Part shown: piece after piece, positions 49,191 to 55,547 of the stretch
How positions within the stretch are numbered: position 1 is the first letter of the stretch
Layout: the number at the start of each line of letters is the position of its first letter
Source of the DNA: Solirubrobacterales bacterium
GTDB lineage: Bacteria; Actinomycetota; Thermoleophilia; Solirubrobacterales; Solirubrobacteraceae
NCBI GenBank assembly: GCA_027451345.1
Contig: DAIDJO010000095.1
Span: 1 to 64,000 of the forward strand
DNA length: 64,000 bases
Direction of reading: 5' to 3'
Notes under the pieces: model-generated
Told to the model about the DNA's origin: nothing
The model's input: the letters and a program-made list of their open reading frames with translations, nothing else
Database searches by the model: none
Made by a program: the position numbers and the translations under genes

Positions 49191-50561
49191 GTGGACAGGT
49201 CAGCGGCCGTGTTCCAGACTCGCGTCACAGATTCCGGCTTCCCCATTCCTCCGGCTCTCACCGAGGAGCTGAGGCCGGCGCTGACCGCTCGGCAGGTCCG
49301 GGCTGAGGCCGAGCGATGCCTGCTCTGCGGCGTGCCCGAGGCGCCGGCCCCGTGCGTCGTCGCATGCCCGGCCGACGTCGACATACCGGCCTTCATCGAG
49401 TCGCTCGCCGGCGATGACCCCGACAGCGCGGCGACGACGGTCTTTGCGGCCAACCTGTTGAGCGGGACCTGCGCGCGCTGCTGCCCGGTGGAGGTGCTCT
49501 GTGAGGCGGGATGCGTGCTCAGTCGGGAGGCTCGACGACCGATCGAGATCGGGGCGTTGCACCGCTATGCCGCCGACTGGGGCCTTGCCCGGCCGCCGGC
49601 CAGGCGTGCGCCGGTGAGCCGGCGCGACGAGCGCGTCGCCGTGATCGGGGCGGGCCCCGGCGGCCTCGCCTGCGCCGGCGAGCTGGCCGCGAGCGGCTTC
49701 GCGGTGACCGTCTACGAGGCGCGCGGCGAGCCCGGGGGGCTCGTGCGCCGAGCCATCGCGCCCTACCGCCAGCTGAACGAGCCGCTGCCCGCCGAGACCC
49801 AGATGATCGCCGAGCTCGGCGCCGAGCTTCGCTTCGGCCACCCGATCGAGAGCGCGGAGGCCCTGCACGCCCTCGAGGCAGAGTGCGAGGCGATCGTGCT
49901 GGCCGTGGGCATGGGCGCAGACGTCACGGTCGACTATCCCGGGGACCACCTGCCCGGGGTGTGGACCTCGCTGCACTTCATCGAGCAGGTGAAGGCGGGG
50001 CGGGTCACCGACATCGGCCAGCGGGTGCTGGTCATCGGTGGGGGCAACACCGCCGTCGACGTCGCTCGCATCGCGGTCCGCCTCGGGGCGGGTGAGGTGA
50101 CCATGGTCTACCGTCGCGGGGAGGCGCAGATGCCCGCCTACGCCCACGAGGTCGCCGAGGCCAAGGCGGAGGGCGTGCGCCTCGAGGTGCTGACCGATGC
50201 GCTGCGGTTCCTCGGCACGGACCGACTCACCGGGGTCGAGCTGCGGCGCACCCGACTGCAGCCCGACGGCGGCGGCAGGCCGCGACCCCAGGCGCTCGAG
50301 GGCACCGAGTTCGTGATGCCCGCGGACACCGCGATCACCGCGATCGGCCAGCAGCCGCGCCGCGAGCTGCTCAGCTGGGTGGACGGGCTGGTGCTGCGCA
50401 ACGGCCTTCCCGAGGTGGACCCTGCCAGCGGGCGCACCGCCAATCCGAAGTACTACGCGGGCGGGGATGTCGTCAACGGCGGGGACACCGTCGTCGAGGC
50501 GGTTCGCTGGGGCAAGCTGATCGCGGGAGCGATCGCACAGCGAGCGGAGAGACGGCCATGA
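49191..50561 (+). CDS. GltD-like FAD/NAD(P) oxidoreductase with N-terminal Fe-S domain
   Basis: 456 aa. The N-terminal Fer4_20 domain has ERCLLCGVPEAPAPCVVACPADVDIP and CARCCPVEVLCEAGC, enough Cys for two 4Fe-4S clusters. FAD Rossmann at about 152 (VIGAGPGGLACAGELAASGF), NAD(P) Rossmann at about 280 (LVIGGGNTAVDVARIA), and C-terminal YYAGGDVVNGGDTVVEAV. Related to glutamate synthase small subunit, NfnB and the dihydropyrimidine dehydrogenase N-terminal part. No GltB or Nfn partner is near; it overlaps korD by ATGA, so it probably moves electrons between NAD(P)H and ferredoxin of the Kor enzyme. GTG 49191 or GTG 49208. Confidence 0.88.
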   Translation: MDRSAAVFQTRVTDSGFPIPPALTEELRPALTARQVRAEAERCLLCGVPEAPAPCVVACPADVDIPAFIESLAGDDPDSAATTVFAANLLSGTCARCCPVEVLCEAGCVLSREARRPIEIGALHRYAADWGLARPPARRAPVSRRDERVAVIGAGPGGLACAGELAASGFAVTVYEARGEPGGLVRRAIAPYRQLNEPLPAETQMIAELGAELRFGHPIESAEALHALEAECEAIVLAVGMGADVTVDYPGDHLPGVWTSLHFIEQVKAGRVTDIGQRVLVIGGGNTAVDVARIAVRLGAGEVTMVYRRGEAQMPAYAHEVAEAKAEGVRLEVLTDALRFLGTDRLTGVELRRTRLQPDGGGRPRPQALEGTEFVMPADTAITAIGQQPRRELLSWVDGLVLRNGLPEVDPASGRTANPKYYAGGDVVNGGDTVVEAVRWGKLIAGAIAQRAERRP

Positions 50562-50812
50562 GCACGCCGTCCGCCGCCGCACGTCCCGTCAAGGATCTCG
50601 AGCCGAGACGGTACCGCCACGGCGATGCCGTGCTGACCACCTACCGGGGCTGGTGCAAGGGCTGTGACCTCTGCATCAGGTCATGCCCGTCCGGGATCCT
50701 CGCCCTGGCCGATGATGACCGGATCGAGGTCACGGACATCTCGCGCTGCATCTTCTGCGGGATCTGCGTGGTTCGCTGCCCCGACTTCGTCTTCGAGCTC
50801 GACCGCAACTGA
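50558..50812 (+). CDS. korD: 2-oxoacid:ferredoxin oxidoreductase delta subunit (2x4Fe-4S ferredoxin)
   Basis: 84 aa with two 4Fe-4S motifs: CKGCDLCIRSCPSG and CIFCGICVVRCPDF. Matches KorD of four-subunit 2-oxoglutarate oxidoreductases. It relays electrons from the TPP subunits to external ferredoxin or to the flavoprotein encoded upstream (ATGA overlap). Confidence 0.92.
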   Translation: MSTPSAAARPVKDLEPRRYRHGDAVLTTYRGWCKGCDLCIRSCPSGILALADDDRIEVTDISRCIFCGICVVRCPDFVFELDRN

Positions 50813-50825
50813 AAGCGAGGGCGAC

Positions 50826-51956
50826 GTGCAACAGCTGATTCAGGGCAACGAGGCGTGTGCACTGGGCGCTGTGGCGGCCGGCTGCTCGTTCTTCGCGGGC
50901 TACCCGATCACCCCGTCGAGCGAGATCATGGAATGGATGTCGCGCCTGCTGCCCCCTCGCGGCGGGGTGTTCATCCAGATGGAGGATGAGCTCTCCTCGA
51001 TGGGTGCGGTGATCGGCGCGAGCTGGACCGGGGCGAAGGCGATGACCGCCACCTCGGGCCCCGGGTTCACGCTCATGCAGGAGCACATCGGCTACGCGGC
51101 GATGACCGAGACCCCGTGCGTGATCGTCGACGGGCAGCGCGTCGGGCCGAGCACCGGGATGCCGACGTCCCCCGCCCAGGGGGACGTCATGCAGGCCCGC
51201 TGGGGTTCGCACGGCGACCGGGCCGCGATCGCCCTCACCGCCTCATCGGTGCTGGACACCTACACGATGACGATCGAGGCGTTCAACATGAGCGAGCGCT
51301 ACCGCCTTCCGGTGGTGCTGCTGCTCGACGCCACGCTCGCCCACATGCGGGAGAACGTGATCCTCCCGGACATTCCGATCGTCAACCGGTCGCGACCGGG
51401 GTCGATCGACGACTTCGCTCCGTTCGGCTCACCCGAGTTCCTGCCCCTGGGAGCGGGCGCCCGGTTCACCGTCAGCGGACTGTCGCACGACGAGGCGGGG
51501 CACCAACGGGCCGCGAAGAGTGACGCCGGGGAGCGCCTCACGCGGCGCGCGATCGAGCGGGTCGCCGCGGACGCCGAGCGGATCACGCTCACCCGCCAGG
51601 AGGCGTTGGACGACGCCGAATTGGTCCTGGTCGCCTACGGGATCACCGCCCGGGCGGCACGCGCCGCCGTGCACCAGCTGCGTGCCGAGGGGATTCCGGC
51701 CGGCCTGTTGGAGCTGCAGACGCTGTGGCCGTTTCCCGCTGAGCTGGTCGGCTCCGTGGCCCGCAACGCGCGCGCCGTGGTGGTCGCCGAGCTCAACCTC
51801 GGGCAGGTGGTGACGCTGGTGAGTGCGGTGGCGGGCACGACGCCCGTCCATCACCTGGGCCGGATGGATGGCGCGCTGCTCGAACCGGACGCGATCGCCG
51901 CGGCCGGCCGCACGGCGTTGCACGACGCGGTCCAGGAGGTGGGAGCGGCGCGATGA
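50826..51956 (+). CDS. korA: 2-oxoacid:ferredoxin oxidoreductase alpha subunit
   Basis: 376 aa from GTG 50826 (VQQLIQGNEA); the track start 50664 is within korD. Pyrimidine-binding domain I of OFORs: FFAGYPITPSSEIMEW, QMEDELSSMGAVIGAS, TATSGPGFTLMQEHIGYA, TSPAQGDVMQARWGSHGD. Domain II (ELVLVAYGITARAARAAV) is at the C-terminus. The subunit arrangement points to 2-oxoglutarate, but branched-chain 2-oxoacids cannot be excluded. Confidence 0.92.
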   Translation: MQQLIQGNEACALGAVAAGCSFFAGYPITPSSEIMEWMSRLLPPRGGVFIQMEDELSSMGAVIGASWTGAKAMTATSGPGFTLMQEHIGYAAMTETPCVIVDGQRVGPSTGMPTSPAQGDVMQARWGSHGDRAAIALTASSVLDTYTMTIEAFNMSERYRLPVVLLLDATLAHMRENVILPDIPIVNRSRPGSIDDFAPFGSPEFLPLGAGARFTVSGLSHDEAGHQRAAKSDAGERLTRRAIERVAADAERITLTRQEALDDAELVLVAYGITARAARAAVHQLRAEGIPAGLLELQTLWPFPAELVGSVARNARAVVVAELNLGQVVTLVSAVAGTTPVHHLGRMDGALLEPDAIAAAGRTALHDAVQEVGAAR

Positions 51957-52774
51957 GACACGGAGAGCATCTGCGGGCGTACCTTCGCGAGGAGGCGATG
52001 CCGAACGTCTGGTGTCCGGGCTGTGGCCACGGCAACGTGATGGGAGCGCTGACACGCACCTTCGACCGCATGCAGCTCGACCTCGACGCGACGGTGGTGA
52101 TCGGCGGCATCGGCTGCGCCAGCCGGATGCCGTTCTTTCTCAACACCAACGCCATGCACACGACGCACGGACGCGCCTTGACCTTCGCGACCGGGGTCAA
52201 GCTCGCCCGCCCCGAGTTGACCGTGCTGGCCGTCATGGGTGACGGGGACGCGCTCGCGATCGGGGGCAACCACCTGATCCACGCGTGCCGACGCAACATC
52301 GACGTGACCGCGCTGGTCCTCAATAACGGCATCTACGGGATGACGGGTGGGCAGCTCGCTCCCTCGACGCCGCAGAGCTTCCGCTCAACCACCAGCGCGC
52401 TCGGAAGCATCGAGTCACCGTTCGACACGGTCGAGCTGGCGCTCGCCGCCGGAGCGACGTACGTCGCACGCGCCACGACGTTCGACTTCGACGAGATGCC
52501 CCAGATGATCGAGGCGGCGATCCGCCATCCGGGATTCGCCCTGGTCGAGATCCTCAGCCAGTGCCCGACCTACTTCGGGCGGCTGAACAAGCTCGGCGAC
52601 GGCCGTGCGCTGCTGGACTACGAGAGGGATCACACCGCGCCGCTCGAGGGGATCACGCGGGAGGAACTGGCCGGGCAGCTGCCGATCGGGGTCTTCCGCG
52701 AGGAGATCCGGCCTGAGTACACGCGCCAGTACGCCGCGCTCTGCGACCGGGCCCGGAGGGCGGGCAATGGCTGA
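51953..52774 (+). CDS. korB: 2-oxoacid:ferredoxin oxidoreductase beta subunit
   Basis: 273 aa. N-terminal WCPGCGHGNVMGAL carries cluster Cys residues. TPP/Mg motif VMGDGDALAIGGNHLIHACRRNIDVTALVLNNGIYGMTGGQ (GDG...N-N) at about 95-130. CPTYFGRLNK near 205 supplies a further Cys. ATGA overlap with korA and 8-bp overlap with korC. Confidence 0.93.
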   Translation: MRHGEHLRAYLREEAMPNVWCPGCGHGNVMGALTRTFDRMQLDLDATVVIGGIGCASRMPFFLNTNAMHTTHGRALTFATGVKLARPELTVLAVMGDGDALAIGGNHLIHACRRNIDVTALVLNNGIYGMTGGQLAPSTPQSFRSTTSALGSIESPFDTVELALAAGATYVARATTFDFDEMPQMIEAAIRHPGFALVEILSQCPTYFGRLNKLGDGRALLDYERDHTAPLEGITREELAGQLPIGVFREEIRPEYTRQYAALCDRARRAGNG

Positions 52775-53354
52775 GCTCAACACCCGCAACGGGCAGGTGG
52801 TGGGCTCCGCGCTCGCCACACGGGTGCAGACGGGGATCCGGATCGCGGGCCGCGGCGGGCAGGGCGTCATGCTCGCCGGCCTGCTGGTCGCCCAGGCGGC
52901 GATCGATGACGGGCTCGAGGTCGTCCAGACGCAGAGCTACGGCCCCGAGGCGCGGCTGGGCGCCGCCAAATCCGACGTGATCCTGTCCCATGAGCCCATC
53001 GCCTACCCGGAGATCGGCGCGCCCGACCTCTTCCTCTGCCTCTCCCACGACGCCTTCACGGCCTATGGCCACGACATCGCACCGAACACGCGGCTGATCA
53101 TGGACGCGCGGGCCGCGCGCGGGCTCGACGTCGGCGAGGCGGTTCTGGTCCCCATGGTCGACACCGCCCGTGACTGCGGCGCGATCATCGCCGCCAACAT
53201 CGTCGGTCTCGGCTTCCTCGTGGGCATGACCGACGTGGTCTCCGAGCGGTCACTGCGGCGGGCTCTGGCCGCCCGGGCGCGACCCGAGTCGCTGGAGAGC
53301 AACATGCGCGCGCTGGACGCGGGATTGGCGCTGGCGGCGGAGCGCCGTCTGTAG
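52767..53354 (+). CDS. korC: 2-oxoacid:ferredoxin oxidoreductase gamma subunit
   Basis: 195 aa from ATG 52767, overlapping korB. OFOR gamma domain: IRIAGRGGQGVMLAGLLVAQAA, QTQSYGPEARLGAAKSDVILS, NIVGLGFLVGMTDVV. It completes the D-A-B-C set. CoA-binding-associated subunit of the soluble complex. Confidence 0.92.
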   Translation: MAELNTRNGQVVGSALATRVQTGIRIAGRGGQGVMLAGLLVAQAAIDDGLEVVQTQSYGPEARLGAAKSDVILSHEPIAYPEIGAPDLFLCLSHDAFTAYGHDIAPNTRLIMDARAARGLDVGEAVLVPMVDTARDCGAIIAANIVGLGFLVGMTDVVSERSLRRALAARARPESLESNMRALDAGLALAAERRL

Positions 53355-53613: not shown

Positions 53614-54369
53614 TCAGCTGAGGGCCTGCGGGTCGGCCGCCAGCCCGGGCAGCCAGCCCGCGGCGTCGCGCCGGAACGCTTCCGGCGCGAGGGCGCCGGC
53701 GCCCGCCGGAACGGCGCCGAGCAGCGGCACCGGGTGGGCGGCGAGGTAGGCGCGGTTGCTGAGCTCGATCGGGTCGGGCTCCTCGGGCCAGGCGCCGATG
53801 ATCGCGCCGTGGATCGGCACTCGCCGCCGCTGGATGGCCTCGAAGGTGAGCTCGCTGTGGTTCAGGGTCCCGAGCGCGGCGCGGCAGACGACGATGGCGG
53901 CCACCGACGTCTCCCCCTGCTCGATCAGCCCCGCCGCCATGTCGGGCAGCGTGTGCCCGGCGCCGTCGAGCTGGACGAGAAGCCCGCCGGCGCCCTCGAC
54001 GAGCAGGTGATCCACCGTCGCCGCGATCCGGCGGATGGTCTCGAGGTGGGTCGCGAGCGGTGGGAGCTCGACCCCCTCCCGCTCTGCGGCGGCCACCGGA
54101 GCCATCGGGTGGAGGAGCCGGATGCCCTCGTGGACGTTCTCGAGCCCGCCGAGCGTGCGGACGACGTCGATGTCACCGCGGCCGTCCTCGAGCCCCGCTT
54201 GCGTCGGCTTGTAGACGGCGACCGTCCGGCCGGCGGCGCGCAGCGCGGCGCCGATCGCGGCCGTGGCGATCGTCTTGCCGACCCCGGTGTCGGTGCCGGT
54301 GACGAAGAGCAGGCGCGGGAGCGGTGCCGGCGGGGCGAGTGGCCCGGCGTCAGAGGGTGGGGCGCCCAT
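53614..54369 (-). CDS. bioD: Dethiobiotin synthetase
   Basis: 251 aa P-loop protein: VTGTDTGVGKTIATAAIG at about 22 (Walker A), KPTQAG with the substrate-binding Lys, VEGAGGLLVQL and NR near 220. Makes the ureido ring of dethiobiotin from DAPA, CO2 and ATP. ATG 54369 overlaps the end of bioF by one base (TGATG), so it depends on translation through bioF and could be affected by the amber codon there. Confidence 0.92.
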   Translation of the reverse strand: MGAPPSDAGPLAPPAPLPRLLFVTGTDTGVGKTIATAAIGAALRAAGRTVAVYKPTQAGLEDGRGDIDVVRTLGGLENVHEGIRLLHPMAPVAAAEREGVELPPLATHLETIRRIAATVDHLLVEGAGGLLVQLDGAGHTLPDMAAGLIEQGETSVAAIVVCRAALGTLNHSELTFEAIQRRRVPIHGAIIGAWPEEPDPIELSNRAYLAAHPVPLLGAVPAGAGALAPEAFRRDAAGWLPGLAADPQALS

Positions 54370-55547
54370 CACGGGCGCCCCGCCAGCGGTCCCACGGCGG
54401 CCGGCGACCGCTCGGCGCCCTCCCGCGCGGTGGCGGCCGCAAGCGCCGCGGCGGCCGCCGCTGCGTCGGGGTCGAGGTCGGCACGGGCGGTCAGGCGCAG
54501 CCGCGAGATGCCGTCCGGCACGCTCGGGGGCCGGAAGCAGCCGACGAGCACGCCCGCGCGCTAGAGCCCGTCGGCGGCCTCGGCGGCCGCCTCGGGGTCG
54601 CCGACCGGGATCGACTGCACCGCGCCGGCGCTCCGGGGGATGTCGGCCGCGGTCGCGATCACCGCCGCGAGCGCGTGAAGCCGCTGCACTCGGTCCGGTT
54701 CATCGAGGATGACGCGGCAGGCGGCGGCCGCCGCAGCGGCGGCGGCCGGAGCGAGGGCGGTATCGAAGAGGAACGTCCGCGCGGTGTTCACCAGGTGCTC
54801 GCGCACGGCGGCGGGACCCAGGACCGCGCCGCCCTGGCTGCCGAGCGCCTTGGAGAGGGTGGCGGTGACGACCACGTGCCCGGCGCCCGCCAGGCCGGCG
54901 GCGTGGACGGCGCCCCGTCCGTCCCCCGCCACGCCGATGCCGTGCGCCTCATCGACGATCAGCAGCGCGTCGTGCCGCGCGCAGAGTGTTGCGGTGGCCG
55001 CCAGGTCGGCGGCGTCGCCGGAGACCGAGTAGACCGACTCGACCGCCACGAGCGCACGGGCCTCGGCGCGCGTGCGCAGCGCCCGCTCGAGCGCGTCGAG
55101 GTCGGCGTGGGGAACGACCTGCACCGGCGAGCGGGAGAGCCGAGCGCCGTCGATCAGCGACGCGTGCACGTGCGCGTCGGTGATGAGCAGCGTCTCGGCG
55201 CTGCCCAGCGCGGTGAGGACGCCGAGGTTCGCCGCGTACCCGCTCGAGAAGACCAGACAGCTCGGTTGGCCGGTGAGCCGGGCCAGCTCGTGCTCGATCT
55301 CCTCGTGCGCCTGCGTCGTGCCGACGACGACGCGCGAGGCGCGGGCACCGGCGCCGAAGCGGGCGAGGGCCGCCGCGGCCGCCTCGCGCAGGCGCGGGTC
55401 GGCGGCCAGGCCAAGGTAGTCGTTGGAGGCGAGATCCAGGAGGTCGGTGCGGCCCGCGGGGCTGCGCTCCGAATCGGTCCGGCGCACCCGGTGGCACCGC
55501 TCGCGCTCGGCCGCCGCCGCCGCCAGCCAGTCCTGCATCGCCCCCAT
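54369..55547 (-). pseudogene. bioF: 8-amino-7-oxononanoate synthase with in-frame amber codon
   Basis: PLP enzyme joining pimeloyl-ACP/CoA and alanine. Conserved parts: LASNDYLGLAADPRL, SGYAANLGVL, VDEAHGIGV, ATLSKALGSQGG (Schiff-base Lys). Reading stops at TAG 54563-54561 (codon 329). The same frame then continues RAGVLVGCFRPPSVPDGISRLRLTARADL, the normal BioF C-terminus, to a TGA at 54371. Total 392 codons is the right family length. So one substitution breaks an otherwise intact gene. The track shows the two halves as 54561..55547 and 54369..54551. Mutation, sequencing error or read-through cannot be told apart here. Confidence 0.88.

Follow-up and report, generated by a model that had tools for sequence, protein, structure and literature searches.

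A GltD-like flavoprotein conserved upstream of four-subunit 2-oxoacid oxidoreductases is a predicted NADP+-reducing partner

The window is a stretch of 64,000 nucleotides from a Solirubrobacterales metagenome-assembled genome. Open reading frames and domain profile searches define five intact genes on its forward strand between 49209 and 53354. The first encodes a GltD/NfnB-like iron-sulfur flavoprotein of about 450 amino acids, here called FP (49209..50561, in an open reading frame running from 49191; assigned from its domains and a structural model). It is followed by korD/oorD, encoding an 84-residue ferredoxin with two [4Fe-4S] clusters (50558..50812; open reading frame, domain and NCBIfam profiles), and korA/oorA, encoding a 376-residue alpha subunit with POR_N and PFOR_II domains (50826..51956; profiles and PDB matches). 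The last two genes are korB/oorB, for a 273-residue beta subunit with a TPP_enzyme_C domain (51953..52774; profiles and a PDB match), and korC/oorC, for a 195-residue gamma subunit with a POR domain (52767..53354; domain and NCBIfam profiles). Start and stop codons overlap at three of the four junctions. The FP stop and korD start share an ATGA (50558-50561), as do korA and korB (51953-51956), and the end of korB overlaps korC by 8 nt; korD and korA are separated by a 13 nt gap. These overlaps indicate that the five genes form one translationally coupled operon, in agreement with the first-pass annotation, which had placed a four-subunit Kor and a GltD/NfnB-like flavoprotein overlapping korD in a single operon. 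A GTG at 49209 is a more likely FP start than 49191, because GGACAGG lies upstream of it and the first start codon available to the orthologue in genome G006 falls at the matching residue. The KorA and KorC starts, 50826 and 52767, both fall inside the mechanical reading frames. Third-position GC is 0.87-0.92 in the operon, slightly below the 0.93-0.96 of its neighbours.

The alpha, beta and gamma subunits and a delta subunit with two [4Fe-4S] clusters are all present in the order D-A-B-C, the composition of four-subunit OorDABC enzymes. KorA scores 491 bits against NF006412 (cut-off 411) and matches the structures 1yd7 and 8ys5_A. KorB carries the TPP motif GDG...NN and the cluster cysteines C21, C24, C55 and C204; its top PDB match is 8ys5_C, the beta subunit of 2-oxoglutarate oxidoreductase (E 1.3e-66). 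KorD has eight cysteines (C33, C36, C39, C43, C64, C67, C70 and C74). The best-scoring models for KorB and KorD are OorB and OorD, both under cut-off, and several Kor subunits fall below the NCBIfam equivalog cut-offs for OorB, OorC and OorD. Among solved structures, the nearest are those of 2-oxoacid and 2-oxoglutarate oxidoreductases (1yd7, 8ys5 and 6n2n), although KorA and KorB score below the OorA and OorB equivalog cut-offs. By its sequence, Kor is thus of the OorDABC (2-oxoglutarate) type. Based on the KorA, KorB and KorD profile scores, the closest structures and a gene order shared with H. pylori oorDABC, 2-oxoglutarate is the likeliest predicted substrate.

A 2-oxoglutarate dehydrogenase E1 is encoded in the genome as well, and its C-terminal domain lies at G000:C13:23937-24359 in a frame of 1425 amino acids. 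E1 (PF16870) is present in 21 of 21 genomes tested, the window's genome among them, and we therefore reject the idea that FP-Oor is the sole 2-oxoglutarate-oxidising enzyme. Since E1 is present, 2-oxoglutarate oxidation is not the exclusive task of the operon, and its substrate could differ. One speculation is that the operon serves under particular conditions, for example at low oxygen. Separately, DUF6537, a domain of indolepyruvate-type oxidoreductases, has two matches in the genome (G000:C72:18412-19002 and G000:C52:10798-11439), so further 2-oxoacid oxidoreductases may be encoded there.

We then considered FP itself, with residues counted from 49191. It has the architecture of a GltD-like iron-sulfur flavoprotein: an N-terminal Fer4_20 domain with two clusters (E 1.8e-27), followed by FAD and NAD(P) Rossmann domains (Pyr_redox_2, E 1.1e-29). 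The FAD motif GAGPGG starts at G153 and the NAD(P) motif GGGNTA spans 283-288. These features bear out the earlier description of FP as having Fe-S clusters with FAD and NAD(P) domains. We mapped cluster ligands and a YRR motif (307-309) from the NfnB numbering in PMC7596348. The predicted ligands are C43, C46, C55 and C108 for the distal [4Fe-4S] cluster, and C59, C98, C104 and position 124 for the proximal cluster. The seven predicted ligand cysteines are kept in all 41 FPs that cover the region, as is the non-ligand C94. Across the same 41, 39 have Gln at position 124 and only the window and G006 have His; position 97 is Cys in these two and Val in the others. Gln is also the residue that we take to occupy the proximal-cluster position in dihydropyrimidine dehydrogenase (DPD), and the proximal cluster of the window's lineage may have gained a His ligand. 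The YRR motif is kept in 42 of 42 FPs. In NfnB this motif binds the NADP phosphate, and it separates NADP-specific DsrL-2 from NAD-preferring DsrL-1 (PMC7596348), from which we infer that FP prefers NADP+ over NAD+. An AlphaFold2 model of FP (pLDDT 90) gave NfnB/NfnL, GltD and DPD as top fold matches.

No GltD, NfnB-type or PRK12771 model gives FP a score anywhere near its curated cut-off. It reaches 246 bits against TIGR01318, the small subunit of NADPH glutamate synthase (cut-off 483), and a gltBD-like pair is encoded elsewhere in the genome, on contig C88; FP is therefore not GltD. For PRK12771 it scores 302 bits against 516 (NF009410), with a match that stops before the ferredoxin part. 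Nor is FP assigned to Nfn, as no gene for NfnA (FAD, [2Fe-2S]) adjoins it. The tested flanking genes are an enoyl-CoA hydratase gene and a divergent DUF5335 gene on the 5' side and convergent biotin genes on the 3' side. None of these is NfnA-, GltB- or DPD-like, as the first-pass annotation had stated.

That annotation proposed surveying the gene order, and a flavoprotein not conserved with kor genes would have spoken against its reading. Our survey took in relatives, 397 genomes from the phylum, a scan of genome contigs and, for one Bacillota hit, 154 genomes of its class. From about 44% identity upward, FPs form a distinct clade (SH-aLRT 100), represented by 44 distinct loci. The 29 genomes that carry them bear the label Actinomycetota or Bacillota. 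All 44 lie directly upstream, on the same strand, of either oorDABC (27) or porCDAB (17); in some of the Oor loci (G017, G499, G495 and G504:C69) FP is partial at a contig end. Those FPs just under ~44% identity that we checked had no adjoining kor or por genes. Because every member of the clade has the same neighbours, the pairing of FP with kor/por is not due to chance and is conserved in two bacterial phyla; the result that would have spoken against the earlier reading did not appear.

FP is not tied to one of the two enzymes. A single FP precedes oorDABC and then por genes in four genomes (G494, G535, G540 and G541), and fourteen genomes have separate FP-Oor and FP-Por operons. These arrangements suggest that FP follows 2-oxoacid oxidoreductases as such. 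Nine-gene FP-oorDABC-porCDAB runs headed by a single FP occur at loci L162, L170, L215 and L216, the last of which ends inside porA. In the FP tree, the FP beside porCDAB at locus L078 is sister to the trio from the window's genus, which stands beside Oor, indicating that partners have been exchanged or lost. KorAB from 25 sampled FP-bearing operons forms one clade (support 99), in which the genus trio is sister to, and not nested within, the Bacillota clade. The genomes with the nearest OorDABC outside this clade had no detectable clade FP.

The operon is found in only 3 of the 28 genomes of the window's genus. The survey also upheld the view that Actinobacteria mostly carry another, simpler KorAB. 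This common KorAB is absent from the three FP genomes and present in 15 others, and 10 genomes have neither; with three FP genomes and incomplete assemblies, the pattern is only suggestive of mutual exclusion within the genus.

A parallel arrangement lies outside the FP clade in the window's own genome. On contig C108 (G000:C108; L040 9084-13709, reverse strand), porC-porA-porB is followed by a GltD-like flavoprotein with a PorD-like ferredoxin at its C terminus. This protein scores 715 bits against NF009410 (cut-off 516), with PorD_Arch over residues 655-714, and occupies a separate branch from FP in the GltD-like tree. Loci of this kind are common across the genus and the order. Here a GltD-like module beside Por subunits apparently performs the same trick as FP, although it is fused to the delta ferredoxin and encoded by the last gene and not the first. 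The occurrence of this fusion beside the remaining three subunits gives strong, if circumstantial, support to the proposed contact between FP and KorD. There is also a solved precedent in DPD, where a GltD-like domain touches an 8Fe ferredoxin domain (PMC8097209).

Several known systems resemble this operon. PadEFGHI, the phenylglyoxylate:NAD+ oxidoreductase of Azoarcus/Aromatoleum, combines alpha, beta, gamma and delta subunits with PadH, a GltD-like subunit that carries FAD. As predicted for FP-Kor, PadEFGHI links the oxidation of a 2-oxoacid to a pyridine nucleotide (Hirsch 1998, as cited in PMC5109826), but its core is Por-like, its substrate aromatic and its acceptor NAD+. KorA and KorB score 73.7 and 33.0 bits against PadG and PadI (cut-offs 700), so by these scores FP-Kor does not belong to PadEFGHI. 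The OorDABC and PorCDAB enzymes of H. pylori share the same subunits, in the orders DABC and CDAB, and their electrons end on NADP, as the published title on electron transport to NADP indicates (Hughes 1998, St Maurice 2007, as cited in PMC7084853). According to the same source they use a separate flavodoxin and FqrB, whereas the operon described here opens with the gene for a GltD-like flavoprotein. FP-Kor would thus work like both systems and is a member of neither. DsrL is likewise a GltD-like NAD(P)H:acceptor oxidoreductase that partners a catalytic complex and whose YRR sets NADP use (PMC7596348), but its partner is the sulfite reductase DsrAB and it has a C-terminal ferredoxin domain of its own. 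That study mentions DsrL-like genes linked to pyruvate/ketoisovalerate:ferredoxin oxidoreductase genes and leaves them out. NfnAB and DPD are the closest solved folds, and NfnB shares the YRR, but FP is without an NfnA or a pyrimidine-reducing partner. The available part of a review of GltD-like enzymes (PMC8097209) makes no mention of an FP-Oor system, and a literature search with most subscription papers outside its scope found no functional account of the FP family or of an Oor-FP enzyme.

Taken together, the operon probably encodes an OorDABC-type oxidoreductase, most likely for 2-oxoglutarate, in which a dedicated flavoprotein replaces free ferredoxin or flavodoxin and passes electrons to NADP+. 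KorAB with TPP would decarboxylate the 2-oxoacid and form the acyl-CoA. Two electrons would leave one at a time, from the KorB cluster to the two KorD clusters, and KorD would serve as the bridge to the two N-terminal clusters of FP through the proposed contact. The FAD of FP would then collect both electrons and transfer a hydride to NADP+. The predicted net reaction is 2-oxoglutarate + CoA + NADP+ -> succinyl-CoA + CO2 + NADPH.

The first-pass annotation had offered two directions, direct delivery of electrons to NAD(P)+ or a reverse reaction driven by NADPH. Direct delivery is best supported, given the obligate co-occurrence, the fused analogue in the same genome, the full set of cluster ligands and the YRR motif, and the best reading of FP is as a dedicated NADP+-reducing subunit or partner of Kor. 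The reverse is not supported. The 2-oxoglutarate/succinyl-CoA couple lies near -0.5 V and NADP+/NADPH near -0.32 V under standard conditions, somewhat lower in cells. Oxidation to NADP+ should therefore be favourable, and carboxylation of succinyl-CoA from NADPH alone should not; in addition, none of the flanking genes tested encodes a bifurcating partner of the NfnA kind. Oor-type enzymes can in principle run both ways and the genome has an oxidative E1 as well, but we regard a reductive role as very improbable. A free-standing ferredoxin:NADP+ oxidoreductase, co-transcribed with kor/por and served by free ferredoxin, deserves more weight, though it too is unlikely. Genes that are co-transcribed and co-inherited need not encode a complex, and FP could be diffusible: no FP-KorD fusion was seen in the clade, isolated DsrL has standalone NAD(P)H:acceptor activity (PMC7596348), and H. 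pylori achieves the same with its two separate proteins, as cited in PMC7084853. However, none of the 44 clade loci was found away from kor/por, and the C108 flavoprotein, from a parallel family in this genome, carries the delta ferredoxin as a fusion. Least probable of all is a chance placement beside kor of a subunit that belongs to glutamate synthase, Nfn or DPD. FP has the same domain architecture as these subunits, but the constant neighbours, the low model scores and the separate gltBD-like pair leave this very little room.

Models of Oor and Por normally have them donate electrons to ferredoxin or flavodoxin. If the dedicated NADP+-reducing role of FP is correct, the metabolism of these Actinomycetota and Bacillota would have to be modelled differently, as this step would yield NADPH and not low-potential electrons, and the presence of oorDABC should not be taken as evidence of a reductive TCA cycle. 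In the nine-gene runs, one FP would serve both enzymes and hard-wire CoA-dependent oxidative decarboxylation to NADPH. We give roughly even chances to the broader proposal that the FP family is an exchangeable NADP+ module for 2-oxoglutarate and pyruvate oxidoreductases, making NADPH without free ferredoxin, with a possible His ligand in the window's lineage. The linkage provides a testable prediction for FPs that pipelines would name glutamate synthase small subunit or NAD(P)-dependent oxidoreductase, and, being compact, the operon is a candidate for engineering pyruvate or 2-oxoglutarate oxidation that is linked to NADPH.

The G006 operon is flanked by other genes than the window operon, so FP-korDABC appears to move as a unit. 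A plasmid search returned only matches of up to 41%. On the 3' side of the operon, bioF (54366-55547, reverse strand) contains one in-frame TAG at 54561-54563, with the rest of the C-terminal part in frame beyond it, reflecting either a nonsense mutation or a sequencing error in the metagenome-assembled genome.
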